Assembly: GCF_015476115.1 (NCBI RefSeq)
Contig: NZ_CP064295.1
Coordinates: 1,420,001 to 1,484,000, forward strand
Reading direction: 5' to 3'
DNA from: Aegicerativicinus sediminis
GTDB taxonomy: Bacteria > Bacteroidota > Bacteroidia > Flavobacteriales > Flavobacteriaceae
Length of the DNA: 64,000 nt
In this document: positions 60,654-63,982 of the stretch, one piece after another
Layout of the letters: every line of letters starts with the position of its first letter
Numbering within the stretch: the first letter of the stretch is position 1
Notes under the pieces: generated by a model
Seen by the model: only the letters and a program-made list of their open reading frames with translations
Database searches by the model: none
Told to the model about the DNA's origin: nothing
Made by a program: the position numbers and the translations under genes

Positions 60654-61727
60654 ATGTCTTCAAACGAATCAATTAAAGGTCGTGGGGCCCAAATGAATGT
60701 GGCAAATCGCTTTTTTGAACTTTCACATGAAATTAGGGACGAGTTTTTAGAATATTGCCAAAAAGAGGGAGAGCATCCAGAATCAAATAAAACCAATTAC
60801 CTAAAAATTTATCCTAAAACAATTGTAAACAAAGTTGAGAGTCCAGATGTAAGGATGATGTATTCAATGAATCCCTATCAAGGTTGTGAACATGGTTGCA
60901 TTTATTGTTATGCTAGAAATACGCATGAGTATTGGGGCTATGGCCCTGGATTGGATTTTGAGCGAACTATTTTAATAAAAGAAAATGCTCCAGCTTTGTT
61001 GGAGGATTTTCTAAAAAGGCCAAAATGGGTGGGGGATACAATTGTATTATCTGGGAATACAGATTGTTATCAACCTGCAGAAAGAAAGTTTGAAATAACC
61101 CGCAAGTGTTTGGAAATATTTCTAAAATACAAACATCCAGTTGGTATTATCACAAAGAACACGCTCTTTTTAAGAGACCTGGACATTATTAAGGAATTAG
61201 GCGAACAAAAGTTGATAGGGCTCAATATTTCTTTAACAAGCTTAAATGAAAAAACAAGACAAATTTTAGAGCCAAGAACAGCCTCAGTTTACAAACGTTT
61301 AAAAGCAATAGAAACTTTATCTAAGTTGAACATCCCTGTCAATGTCATGATGGCGCCAATTATTCCGTCCATTAACAGCCATGAAATACTTCCATTGGCA
61401 AAAAAGGTAAGTGAGGCTGGCGCAATCTCCATTGCACATACTGTGGTTAGATTAAATGGGGCAATTGGGATTATTTTTGAAGATTGGATAAGAAAAACAT
61501 TTCCAGAGCGTGCAGATAAAGTACTCAACCAAATCAGGGAATGCCATGCTGGTAATTTGAATGATAGTAGATTTGGCGAGAGAATAAGAGGAACTGGTAA
61601 GATTGCAGAGCAAATACAGCAATTAATGGCATTGGCTAAATTGAAATATTTTAAAGGGAATTCTTTTCCGGTGTTGAGCCCTGATTCCTATTTAGAACTA
61701 AAAAACCCACAAATGAGATTATTCTAA
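60654..61727 (+). CDS. PA0069-family radical SAM protein
   Basis: The 357-residue protein has the radical SAM motif CEHGCIYC (Cys78, 82, 85) and opens with IKGRGAQMNVANRF, a signature of the PA0069 family (related in fold to spore photoproduct lyase). The motif MNPYQGCEHGCIYCYARNTH is typical. The reaction is not known. The gene is alone, divergent from the oxidoreductase and ends in a terminator hairpin shared with the convergent secreted-protein gene. Confidence 0.9.
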   Translation: MSSNESIKGRGAQMNVANRFFELSHEIRDEFLEYCQKEGEHPESNKTNYLKIYPKTIVNKVESPDVRMMYSMNPYQGCEHGCIYCYARNTHEYWGYGPGLDFERTILIKENAPALLEDFLKRPKWVGDTIVLSGNTDCYQPAERKFEITRKCLEIFLKYKHPVGIITKNTLFLRDLDIIKELGEQKLIGLNISLTSLNEKTRQILEPRTASVYKRLKAIETLSKLNIPVNVMMAPIIPSINSHEILPLAKKVSEAGAISIAHTVVRLNGAIGIIFEDWIRKTFPERADKVLNQIRECHAGNLNDSRFGERIRGTGKIAEQIQQLMALAKLKYFKGNSFPVLSPDSYLELKNPQMRLF

Positions 61728-61758
61728 AAAAAATGAGCCCGAATGGGCTCACTTTTTT
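61726..61758. terminator. Bidirectional terminator hairpin
   Basis: TGAGCCC and GGGCTCA form a 7-bp stem around GAAT with eight A on the left and six T on the right. It serves the radical SAM gene on the plus strand and the secreted-protein gene on the minus strand. A close relative of this hairpin lies at 62628-62664. Confidence 0.85.
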
Positions 61759-61805
61759 CACTAACTAACTAGGCTTAATCCGTGTCAAAGATTAAATTTT
61801 AATAT
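61754..61805. repeat. 52-base direct repeat, copy 1
   Basis: These 52 bases are identical to 62660-62711. On the minus strand each copy covers the last codons and stop of a secreted-protein gene, the 3' untranslated region and the edge of its terminator. Confidence 0.95.
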
Positions 61806-62382
61806 ATTCTGTAAAGGTTCTGTCTCCAGTGGAAATGACCACTCTGTAATTTCCTTTTTCCTTTTTAGACAATTTATAAGCTCTGTCTAATACATCTTCA
61901 TTACGAAGGGTTTCGGCAAATATTAGTTCGTAATTGTTTTTTGCCATTGAATCTTCGTAATATAGTTTTACTGTCATCGGCTCATGGTCTAAACTAAGTT
62001 TAGAGACGTATACAATTTCTTCCTTTACCCGTACTACTGGTTTGTATACAATAGTAGCTTTCTCAGTTTCGAGGAGAACCTCATCATTCATTACTGTAAC
62101 AGGAATCACTTTAATTTCGAAATCTTTTTCCAATTCAAATTGGTACTTTCCTTTAGGTAAGGATGCCAAATCGAAATTCTTGACATATCTTCCTGTTTGG
62201 GTAATTTCTTCCTTATAAAGGATTTCTCCAAGGTCTGAAACCAAGGTAAGGGTCTGGCCATCTTTTACGTTTTCTAAAACGATCATGGCGCGCTTGTTAA
62301 TGTCTGCAGCAGCATAACTTTCTGTTAAAGTTGACGCTGATAATAAACAGAACATTAGAACGGTGTTGAGTACTTTTTTCAT
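61792..62382 (-). CDS. Small secreted beta-sandwich protein, full-length copy
   Basis: The 196-residue protein has a signal peptide (about 1-24) and a beta-rich mature part in two related halves. Each half has the pattern of a short sorting-domain-like sandwich: LPKGKYQFELE in the first, KKEKGNYRVVISTGD in the second. Similar secreted proteins are common in Flavobacteriaceae but have no assigned function. I chose the ATG at 62382, at the start of the signal peptide; a longer in-frame start at 62454 is less likely because the promoter lies at 62409-62416. A shortened paralogue with the same 3' end lies at 62705. Confidence 0.75.
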   Translation of the reverse strand: MKKVLNTVLMFCLLSASTLTESYAAADINKRAMIVLENVKDGQTLTLVSDLGEILYKEEITQTGRYVKNFDLASLPKGKYQFELEKDFEIKVIPVTVMNDEVLLETEKATIVYKPVVRVKEEIVYVSKLSLDHEPMTVKLYYEDSMAKNNYELIFAETLRNEDVLDRAYKLSKKEKGNYRVVISTGDRTFTEYIKI

Positions 62383-62408
62383 AATAGGTTTTTTAACGTT
62401 CGTTGGTA

Positions 62409-62416
62409 CAAATGTA
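62409..62416 (-). promoter_or_regulatory. Predicted -7 promoter element of the full-length secreted-protein gene
   Basis: The minus strand reads TACATTTG, an exact TAnnTTTG match. Thirty bases further upstream begins a conserved box (62446-62474) shared with the paralogous gene at the same distance. Confidence 0.5.
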
Positions 62417-62445
62417 TGATGGAATTCTATCTTTGGAAATACCGA

Positions 62446-62474
62446 TTTTGGCATATTTATATTCTAAATTAACA
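62446..62474 (-). promoter_or_regulatory. Conserved upstream box, copy 1
   Basis: TTTTGGCA followed, after a few differing bases, by CTAAATTAACA (plus-strand reading) is shared with 62970-62998. In both places the box begins 30 bases from the -7 element. It may hold the -33 contact and a regulator site. The remaining bases to the next terminator show nothing I recognise. Confidence 0.4.
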
Positions 62475-62627
62475 ACTAAAAGATGTCAGGTTAATACAAT
62501 GGGGTAAAAAAGTATATATTTATGTTAATTGGATATAGTGTAATTCGTACACTTAACAGTTTCAGTTTATTATGAATTTATCTAGATATTGAAAGATCTG
62601 AGCCTAATTCAATTCCTGGGTATTTTG

Positions 62628-62664
62628 AAAAAAAAAGTGAGCCCGGGGAGGGCTCACAATTTTT
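62628..62664 (-). terminator. Terminator of the shortened secreted-protein gene
   Basis: GTGAGCCC and GGGCTCAC form an 8-bp stem around GGGGA, with nine T following on the minus strand. Stem sequence and position match the terminator of the paralogous gene. Confidence 0.85.
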
Positions 62665-62711
62665 CACTAACTAACTAGGCTTAATCCGTGTCAAAGATTA
62701 AATTTTAATAT
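62660..62711. repeat. 52-base direct repeat, copy 2
   Basis: This copy is identical base for base to 61754-61805 and spans the 3' end and trailer of the shortened paralogue. Confidence 0.95.
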
Positions 62712-62911
62712 TTTTTATATCCATTAGAGGGAACTAATTGATAATTTCCTTTTTCATTATTCTGTGAAATCACCACATTTAAATTACCATTAGAGATCTG
62801 TTCGGTTAAACTCTTTCCAACTTTATTATAACCTAAACTTAAGGAGTATGCGTTTAGACTTAAAGTGAATATTAAACTGAATATGACAATGGTATTAAGG
62901 GCGTTTTTCAC
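62705..62911 (-). CDS. Short secreted protein, truncated paralogue of the neighbouring gene
   Basis: The 68-residue protein starts at a GTG and has a signal peptide (KNALNTIVIF, compare KKVLNTVLMF in the neighbour). It then goes almost straight to a C-terminal NNEKGNYQLVPSNGYKKY that mirrors the last block of the full-length paralogue. The middle 130 residues are missing. Promoter, upstream box, terminator and 3' trailer are all conserved, so the gene is probably still transcribed. It may be a decaying duplicate or a functional mini-version. Confidence 0.6.
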   Translation of the reverse strand: MKNALNTIVIFSLIFTLSLNAYSLSLGYNKVGKSLTEQISNGNLNVVISQNNEKGNYQLVPSNGYKKY

Positions 62912-62932
62912 AATCGTTTAAAATTGATAATA

Positions 62933-62940
62933 CAAATTTA
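62933..62940 (-). promoter_or_regulatory. Predicted -7 promoter element of the shortened secreted-protein gene
   Basis: The minus strand reads TAAATTTG, an exact TAnnTTTG match, 21 bases ahead of the GTG start. The shared box begins 30 bases upstream, as in the other copy. Confidence 0.5.
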
Positions 62941-62969
62941 CGGACAACACAATCGGTTTGAATTGTCTA

Positions 62970-62998
62970 TTTTGGCAATTTTGTATACTAAATTAACA
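62970..62998 (-). promoter_or_regulatory. Conserved upstream box, copy 2
   Basis: TTTTGGCA and CTAAATTAACA (plus-strand reading) match the box at 62446-62474 with a small length difference between them. Confidence 0.4.
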
Positions 62999-63082
62999 TA
63001 AGTTTGGCTATCTATGAGTCATTGGAGATAATATTGAATAGTTTTAGGTTAATTGGTTATATATGGTCTGATATCGATTGCA

Positions 63083-63109: not shown

Positions 63110-63982
63110 ATGAAGAAGAAACCTACTTTCGAAAAGATTAGCCCTGATTTTGGAAGTTCATTGCTTGTAAAACAACACACCTTACAGGCTCAAAATCAAC
63201 GGGCCTTTTGGCACTTCCATCCAGAAATAGAATTAGTTTACGTAAATAAAGGTCAGGGTAAAAGGCACATCGGTAACCACCTTTCTTATTTCAATAATAG
63301 CATGTTGGTTTTGATAGGATCTAACCTGCCACATAATGGTTTTGCAGATCGACTTACTACTAGTGGTAGTGAGACCATTGTGCAGTTCCTTCCAGATTTT
63401 CTTGGTGACAAGTTTATGGATATGCCAGAAATGAAGGAAATAGAAAATTTGTTTCAAAAAGCTAAAAAAGGAATTCTGTATCAGCCTGAAACAAAAAAGA
63501 TCGTTGGGCCTAAAATTGAAGCTCTTATTGAAATGGAAGGACTTCCGAGAATTTATAGTCTTTTAGAGATTTTGCATATTATGTCTGAGGCGAAAGACTA
63601 TACTTTATTAAATGTAGATGGCTTTGCATTTGAAACTGCTCCACAGGATAGCAATAAGATTGATAAAGTGTTTAATTACGTAAACAAGAATTTTAAAGAG
63701 CCTATTAGTCTAGAGGAAATTTCTGATGTTGTAAGTATGACTGTTCCTGCATTTTGCCGCTATTTTAAAAAGGCTACCGGAAAAACTTTTACTAAGCTGG
63801 TAAATGAATATAGAGTGGTACACGCAACCAAGTTACTTTCAGAAAGTAATATGAGCATCACCGATATTTGTTATGAGTGCGGATTTAATAACTTCTCACA
63901 CTTCAACAATACTTTTAATGAGTTTACAGGTAAAAGTGCTTCAGAATATAGAAACCAAATAAAATTAATCTTACAGCAGTAG
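63110..63982 (+). CDS. AraC-family transcriptional regulator with cupin domain
   Basis: The 290-residue protein has an N-terminal cupin (about 20-110, with FWHFHPEIELVYVNKGQGKR) and a C-terminal AraC DNA-binding domain (about 185-287) with LEEISDVVSMTVPAFCRYFK and ITDICYECGFNNFSHFNNTF. Such cupin-AraC regulators often respond to sugars or carbohydrate breakdown products. The gene is divergent from the duplicated secreted-protein cassettes and may control them. It is complete, and only 18 bases of the window follow its stop. Confidence 0.9.
   Translation: MKKKPTFEKISPDFGSSLLVKQHTLQAQNQRAFWHFHPEIELVYVNKGQGKRHIGNHLSYFNNSMLVLIGSNLPHNGFADRLTTSGSETIVQFLPDFLGDKFMDMPEMKEIENLFQKAKKGILYQPETKKIVGPKIEALIEMEGLPRIYSLLEILHIMSEAKDYTLLNVDGFAFETAPQDSNKIDKVFNYVNKNFKEPISLEEISDVVSMTVPAFCRYFKKATGKTFTKLVNEYRVVHATKLLSESNMSITDICYECGFNNFSHFNNTFNEFTGKSASEYRNQIKLILQQ

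Follow-up and report, generated by a model that had tools for sequence, protein, structure and literature searches.

Small RNAs derived from the 3′ untranslated region (UTR) of a messenger RNA (mRNA) form a general class; to our knowledge, the origins of small RNA genes have mostly been inferred from single cases. In Bacteroides thetaiotaomicron the FopS and GibS small RNAs are reported to pair with, and repress, susC-like translation starts; FopS comprises 14 paralogues with a seed, R1′, in the 5′ part, and the same paper places one member among the 3′-UTR-derived small RNAs (PMC11697453). In Flavobacterium psychrophilum, Rfp18 is described as strongly structured, with a third stem-loop predicted to pair with protease mRNAs (PMC9723704). 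Our subject is a duplicated cassette in the genome of Aegicerativicinus sediminis, found in a stretch of 64,000 nucleotides (nt) of contig NZ_CP064295.1 (positions 1,420,001 to 1,484,000; hereafter the window, in whose numbering positions are given). It comprises two minus-strand units beside an AraC-family gene, each with a promoter, an open reading frame (ORF) for a secreted product, a 3′-terminal segment that we call the trailer, and a terminator.

On comparison of DNA sequences we find it reasonably probable that this is an AraC-controlled unit whose conserved output is an RNA 3′ end acting as a base-pairing small RNA, most likely on susC-like mRNAs. We found no description of this RNA family in the open-licence PMC literature on DUF3244, Bacteroides RRM proteins, flavobacterial small RNAs and RNA evolution from coding genes.

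The duplicated cassette

The two units are flanked by an AraC gene, divergent from them, and a radical SAM gene that converges on them; the features are as follows.

63110–63982, plus strand: AraC-family regulator, divergently transcribed from the cassette, with an N-terminal part resembling cupins; presumed to activate via the box
63029–63061, minus strand: distal upstream element of the short unit, 76% identical to 62505–62537
62957–62998, minus strand: upstream box of the short unit (TTAATTTAGTATACAAAATTGCCAAAAT), from repeat comparison and a box profile in relatives
62933–62940, minus strand: −7 promoter element TAAATTTG of the short unit, read from the sequence and the flavobacterial sigma-A consensus
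62705–62911, minus strand: 68-codon remnant ORF with a GTG start, comprising signal peptide and C-terminal block; exceeds all 200 shuffles
62660–62711, minus strand: trailer of the short unit, matching the long unit's over all 52 nt; putative body of a small RNA, with CUAGUUAGUUAGUGAAA as its single-stranded seed
62628–62657, minus strand: intrinsic terminator of the short unit (GTGAGCCCTCCCCGGGCTCAC and a T run), read from the sequence
62505–62537, minus strand: distal upstream element of the long unit, from repeat comparison
62433–62474, minus strand: upstream box of the long unit, from repeat comparison and the box profile
62409–62416, minus strand: −7 promoter element TACATTTG of the long unit, read from the sequence
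61792–62382, minus strand: 196-codon secreted protein with predicted tandem beta-sandwich domains and a weak DUF3244 match
61754–61805, minus strand: trailer of the long unit (last codons and 3′ UTR), the same, by repeat comparison, as the short unit's
61726–61752, minus strand: intrinsic terminator of the long unit, which shares two bases with the end of the radical SAM gene
60654–61727, plus strand: convergent PA0069-family radical SAM gene (NCBIfam NF033668, 450.7 bits), a neighbour in many relatives

A sequence-only reading of the window had described two genes that have in common an upstream box and promoter, a similar signal peptide, a terminator and a 3′ end identical over 52 nt, and repeat comparison bears this out. 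The trailers belong to a 60-nt repeat (61754–61813 and 62660–62719) of 95% identity; the boxes are 79% identical over 42 nt. Box, distal element and −7 element pairs all recur at a spacing of 524 nt, so that the box-to-promoter distance is equal in both copies: this part of the reading stands, and its figure of 30 bases depends on the anchor, the distance being 36 nt when GCCAAAA is taken as anchor and the count runs from its first base to the −7 element. The −7 elements themselves (TACATTTG at 62416–62409; TAAATTTG at 62940–62933) may be set beside TAnnTTTG, the flavobacterial sigma-A consensus as given in PMC9723704. Both units end in a GAGCCC/GGGCTC hairpin followed by a T run.

The trailers lie 906 nt apart, against 524 nt for the upstream elements; the AraC-proximal copy is thus short by 382 nt net, which accords with the internal deletion that had been proposed, and its ORF has 68 codons where the long copy has 196. 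The missing length is not a multiple of three, and the last codons of the short ORF are in another frame. Judged by alignment, the likeness of the two cassettes is not due to chance: they are homologous, in order, along their whole length. The radical SAM gene, a conserved neighbour, probably stands outside the mechanism considered below.

ORF-less units and their trailers in relatives

Relatives were sampled as a small set of 60 genomes (the window's own counted in) and a larger draw of 299 genomes of the family sharing the module, taken as Flavobacteriaceae; 80 loci were fetched, the window's own being one. G and L numbers denote genomes and loci. We use 'DUF gene' for the gene of any homologue of the long protein – a borderline DUF3244 secreted protein – and 'ORF-less unit' for box, promoter, trailer and terminator beside AraC with no DUF ORF in between. 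As a criterion we took a stretch of more than 450 nt separating AraC from the first intact DUF gene, which yielded 22 loci besides the window.

These 22, among 74 AraC loci, have an AraC-proximal unit without a DUF gene, and they retain the box, the promoter (the −7 pattern is unmatched in L091), an interior devoid of the DUF ORF, and the trailer with its terminator. When the longest ORF of each unit was compared with shuffled sequences (200 shuffles for the short unit of the window), it spanned just 5–34 codons in 20 of the 22, with p from 0.07 to 0.97. A DUF profile run on the reading frames of 23 long gaps gave next to no matches, with E of about 1 for L060 and L116; in L116 a signal-peptide start interrupted by stops is still recognisable by eye. 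In many loci the trailer starts 12 nt short of where an intact DUF gene ends, and a relic of those codons survives in the ORF-less units. This relic, together with the stop-ridden start of L116, indicates the direction of change, from gene to RNA. As candidate stand-alone transcripts the units offer a promoter-like element, a terminator and, in 20 of the 22 relatives' units, loss of the ORF; the window unit retains its 68 codons.

On a tree of 74 AraC proteins (L052, where AraC is split, was omitted) the ORF-less state requires six changes, forced by well-supported branches; some of the changes may be losses of the unit instead of gains. Genomes outside the main clade that show the state are G268 (L100) and G015 (L149), both of one genus, and G003 (L159), whose unit was seen by eye and has no trailer-profile match. 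The window lineage represents a half-way state; its sister G001 is intact. Elsewhere the unit stands beside AraC while DUF genes lie at other places (G015, L149; G156, L222; and, by eye, G003, L159), and in G193 an ORF-less unit is present with no DUF gene found in a 77%-complete genome. Further units without a DUF ORF, consisting of box, a hundred-odd nt, a UUAGUU trailer and a terminator, are found elsewhere in L144 and L103, the latter without a clear −7 element.

What these units have in common is above all the trailer. Among 20 of them (190 pairs) mean identity was 0.89 in the trailer (0.72–1.00), a value raised somewhat by the choice of units through an exact 17-nt core inside it, as against 0.67 in the box, 0.55–0.57 in the interior and a baseline of 0.53 beyond the terminator. 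L111 and L100 fall outside this set, with a trailer at E 3.8e-12 in the former and a diverged one at 0.013 in the latter. The sequence-only reading had offered two explanations for the identity of the trailer, recent gene conversion and selection: in the window alone the two are indistinguishable, and the figures from the relatives support selection. Defining a strong trailer match as E below 1e-5, we found one also on a DUF copy in 12 of the 22 ORF-less loci, and on none at the fetched locus in 10. Of those ten genomes, nine have a single covariance-model match in the whole genome and one (G268) has three; conversion from a neighbour cannot, therefore, explain the uniform trailer in the nine. 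Comparison thus shows that, as a matter of sequence, the trailer is conserved independently of any ORF, and there is good support for its being a functional RNA.

The trailer, of about 75 nt, is predicted to comprise a single-stranded UUAAUGUCUUAUUUAGUUUAGUU stretch and then the terminator. In the consensus fold of our alignment of 39 sequences (A1) the terminator alone is paired, its stem showing two-sided changes at 6 of 9 pairs, and the stretch ahead of it is highly conserved in relatives; the version in the window differs in sequence from that conserved stretch. The trailer would qualify as 3′-UTR-derived in that it has its 3′ end in common with a protein-coding mRNA gene, and it is identical in the long copy of the window.

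A covariance model (R1) trained on the 39 rows, the two window trailers and L100 included, located the trailer in 53 of the 299 family genomes, 45 times at an AraC or DUF locus and eight times elsewhere. Matches in G064, G285, G030 and G172 were set aside as a different noncoding stretch, and those in G089, G111, G200 and G222, with the second of G271, look spurious or unexplained. A DNA search of the 60 genomes with the 94-nt trailer region of the long copy matched only G000, 46 nt of G001 and short pieces of G007, G037, G038, G050 and G055. Rfam gave sub-threshold matches alone on the window stretch (CsrC, 20.7 of 61 bits; MIR1523) and no family at the gathering threshold on the units of eight loci; two more scanned loci hold the nrdB-like stretch. 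The latter, a further noncoding stretch that is conserved, has TTTTAGTTAGTTTAGTTAATTATTGGG and a terminator and was seen in L224, L225, L227 and L228 near what we take to be a response-regulator-like gene; three of these four loci presumably also have an nrdB-like gene nearby. A Flavo-1 RNA (RF01705, 53.4 bits) lies near one locus, at L097:9152–9239 on the plus strand.

The setting of these units is itself conserved. Among the 60 genomes the long protein has a match in 20 (E ≤ 0.001) and the AraC protein in 23 (E ≤ 1e-60), all 20 being within the 23; in G027 the AraC beside the DUF gene is split into two reading frames (L052), and the listed AraC match is at another place. AraC occurs without a long-protein match in G007, G013 and G040, and in the last two a DUF-like ORF is, by eye, still divergent to it. 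AraC and the nearest DUF gene (or ORF-less unit) form a divergent pair, at a distance of 36 to 1500 nt, in 75 of the 80 loci including that of the window, the exceptions being L046, L058, L092, L114 and L127. A box profile – built first on 19 of the 22 ORF-less units and then, in one further round, on its own matches, so that the count is not independent – matched upstream of 112 of 129 DUF genes; the 17 misses include genes such as the long copy of the window, where the listed ORF start precedes the box, and 11 of 161 matches lay neither ahead of a DUF gene nor beside AraC. In G015 five of five DUF genes have the box although AraC is some 270 kb distant, which argues for control in trans. At the level of sequence, then, comparison shows divergent AraC, conserved box and secreted protein to form a conserved module.

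The long protein matches Pfam DUF3244 (PF11589) at E 5.3e-05 and 23.6 bits, under the gathering cut-off of 25, which its G001 orthologue passes with 29.9 bits; in its own 4.09-Mb genome it has no other match better than E 0.118. It is predicted to consist of secreted beta-sandwich domains: a structure model of moderate confidence, made from a two-sequence alignment, has 15 strands and a mean pLDDT of 71.7, and a fold search with it returned generic Ig/FnIII-like matches alone (TM at most 0.33). The AraC protein of the window matches Pfam HTH_18 (1.8e-21; 76.6 bits against a cut-off of 33.6) and HTH_AraC (48.1 against 26.6), with weak matches to AraC_binding and Cupin_2 under cut-off; that of Polaribacter irgensii is 68% identical. 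Six loci, L087 (2461–2583, plus strand), L108, L138, L044, L128 and also L099, encode a small protein, some 40 residues long, that has a single hydrophobic stretch (..LPIITGLLLxWF..). In five of the six its gene lies beyond AraC, behind the same box, and on account of that box it probably belongs to the same AraC regulon; no match to it was found in the 13-kb stretch L060 of the window genome.

Complementarity to susC-like starts

An identical 23-mer ahead of susC-like genes in G198 and G158 prompted an analysis of susC starts. The duplex energy of the 31-nt single-stranded part of the trailer was computed against start regions (−60 to +20) and scored as z relative to shuffled seeds. Two groups were compared, 20 genomes that have an ORF-less unit and 18 that lack the AraC gene; of the latter, 13 are in the family and gave no match in the trailer search that covered them, and five are of the order only and lay outside that search. 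L254, at a contig edge, was dropped, and L331, with two stops, was unused. In genomes with the unit, 29 susC starts had a mean z of −2.01, with 13 of 29 below −2; in genomes without AraC, 30 starts had a mean of −0.46, with 4 of 30 below −2 (p 9e-5 by gene, 2.4e-4 by genome). Limiting the AraC-free side to family genomes gave 13/29 against 2/23. Start codons are uncertain (offset above 9 nt) in 9 of 29 genes with the unit, 5 of 30 without AraC and 8 of 29 in the set from the window genome and G001; dropping the uncertain ones from the first two sets strengthens the contrast, to 13/20 against 3/25. With windows shifted by 80 to 240 nt on the same genes the means ran from −0.64 to 0.41: the signal sits at the susC start.

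A conserved leader, GAGAAGTGAAAATATA, lies about 35–55 nt ahead of the susC start codon (L242–L253), and is present also in genomes without the AraC gene (L272–L277). Within the receptor class bearing it, the comparison of 12 genes with the unit and 6 without gave p 0.007, L272 being an exception. Motif counts at susC starts were 12/29 against 2/30, with patterns picked after looking. In the window genome the trailer's own seed, UUAGUUAGUUAG, put 7 of 21 susC starts below −2 (6 in another run) against 2 of 21 with the seed of the relatives; these starts differed from 54 window ORF starts at p 0.004, and the interaction of clade and seed (relatives' or window's seed, two susC sets) had p 0.003. 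There is, in computed duplex energies, a shown excess of complementarity at susC starts; that the trailer pairs with susC-like mRNAs we put at about an even chance.

A number of observations weigh against a small RNA acting on susC. The target idea arose post hoc, from antisense matches, and a search for a long antisense target (a 23-nt antisense pattern with at most 3 mismatches, in 19 genomes) gave 9 matches outside trailers against 6 for the control, no clear excess; six of the nine we take to be two susC-like starts, a DUF4212-like start, a secreted-protein start, a 3′ UTR and a site before a purA-like gene in G000. The susC contrast runs between clades, so that shared ancestry inflates it, kinship being handled by the per-genome average alone, and the 183 other ORF starts near the loci that served as controls (mean z 0.04; 4% below −2) are first ATGs of long ORFs, spurious ones among them. 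A strong site exists in a genome without AraC (G022, L272). In the window genome the advantage of the own seed over the relatives' seed reaches only p 0.10, and with its own seed G001 has 3 of 8 starts that pass and a mean near zero (−0.46 and −0.27 in two runs). Recognisable trailers number 53 in 299 genomes as against 136 for the protein gene, so that many relatives have a diverged trailer or none that is recognisable. Lastly, the slot is not always empty of coding potential: L120 and L131 hold alike, unrelated ORFs of 81 and 79 codons, and the 68-codon ORF of the window is open. The slot ORF (..YWKYYTLYDVYHVNPNQIVYTN..), between the AraC promoter and the trailer, occurs also at L154:2577–2822, plus strand (G007); no Pfam match was found for the L131 or L154 copy and no NCBIfam match for the L131 copy. 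In L154 the trailer stops after TTAATGTCTTA, in a genome without a DUF match, and the ORFs behind it resemble what we take to be a transposase.

Alternative explanations and described systems

The short copy could be a pseudogene, a simple decayed tandem duplicate whose identical trailer stems from recent duplication or gene conversion. Tandem duplication of DUF genes is frequent – up to seven matches occur in a genome – and G001, the sole other genome of the genus examined, has one intact copy; a diverged box with an identical trailer is the pattern that a conversion tract leaves, and a strong trailer on a DUF copy at 12 of the 22 ORF-less loci fits the same account. Decay does not, however, readily accommodate a trailer nearly unchanged in the ORF-less units of relatives, 10 of 22 loci without a strong trailer on a DUF copy (with the further covariance-model matches of G268), or the units of G193, where no DUF gene turned up, and of G015 and G156, which stand a long way from the DUF genes. 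The sequence-only reading had tied simple decay to a lack of further copies and of transcription of the short gene. As to copies, the window's own genome holds just the two window sites of a 21-nt trailer core at up to three mismatches, and relatives do hold copies. We regard decay as unlikely.

A role for the trailer as a stability or protein-binding element of the mRNA 3′ UTR, the ORF-less units being decoys or by-products, draws on the binding preference of RRM proteins for UUAG repeats: UUAGUU repeats precede the terminator also in diverged 3′ UTRs, and in the unrelated noncoding stretch between response-regulator-like and nrdB-like genes. It leaves unexplained both the conservation of UUUAAUGUCUU beyond the repeats and the peak of complementarity at susC starts, and we hold it to be distinctly unlikely. 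Very doubtful, in our judgement, is a third account, in which the product is the 68-residue secreted peptide and the RNA merely its messenger. The open frame, the retained signal peptide and a length beyond that in 200 shuffles speak for a peptide, as does the presence of another open ORF in the same slot in L120, L131 and G007; the GTG start, the frame-shifted end and the absence of an ORF longer than chance from 20 of the 22 relatives' units speak against it.

We return, then, to the base-pairing small RNA. The divergent AraC regulator would bind the box and switch on both copies, of which the long one would yield the secreted beta-sandwich protein together with a trailer RNA from its 3′ UTR, and the short one, most of its ORF gone, mainly the trailer RNA. 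With its single-stranded seed followed by an intrinsic terminator, this RNA would act by base-pairing, most likely covering the translation-start region of mRNAs for susC-like TonB-dependent receptors, so that outer-membrane uptake systems would be lowered when AraC is active. Comparison shows the order of AraC, box and unit, the repeated loss of the ORF with box, promoter, trailer and terminator retained, and the anatomy of single strand and hairpin; what we infer is that AraC binds, that the units are transcribed, that the RNA is processed out of the long mRNA, that it pairs in vivo, and which way the regulation runs.

A more far-reaching proposal, to which we give somewhat less than an even chance, is that of a small-RNA family repeatedly born in place: an AraC-controlled secreted-protein gene would lose its ORF and keep promoter and 3′ end, the seed would co-evolve with susC starts, one AraC signal would both export a surface protein and shut uptake, and the window, with its 68-codon remnant, would be an intermediate. 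The interest of the locus lies in its offering, at one place and across many genera, several states – intact gene, half-deleted gene (the window), stop-ridden relic (L116), and bare promoter with RNA tail. Flavobacteria are degraders of algal sugars, and our proposal would place their susC-type uptake under post-transcriptional control, with AraC as an identifiable master regulator.

How does such an RNA stand to those already described? No FopS match was found in the window stretch at E ≤ 1, the presence of FopS in the Rfam copy being unchecked. The long protein has a weak profile likeness to Pfam DUF3244 (the window copy under the cut-off, the G001 orthologue above it). With Rfp18 the trailer would have in common that it is a conserved noncoding RNA of Flavobacteriaceae; Rfp18 is set apart, as described, by its strong structure and protease mRNA targets. 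FopS and GibS are alike in having a single-stranded stretch and an intrinsic terminator, with pairing at susC starts demonstrated there and predicted here; they differ, on their published description, in that here there is one AraC-tied locus, with the seed directly before the terminator and an origin in the 3′ end of a protein gene. The resemblance to FopS is one of working, not of membership. With 3′-UTR-derived small RNAs the trailer shares a terminator and 3′ end held in common with an mRNA; it differs from them in that here the parent ORF has repeatedly been lost while promoter and 3′ end stay, leaving what would be a stand-alone RNA gene.

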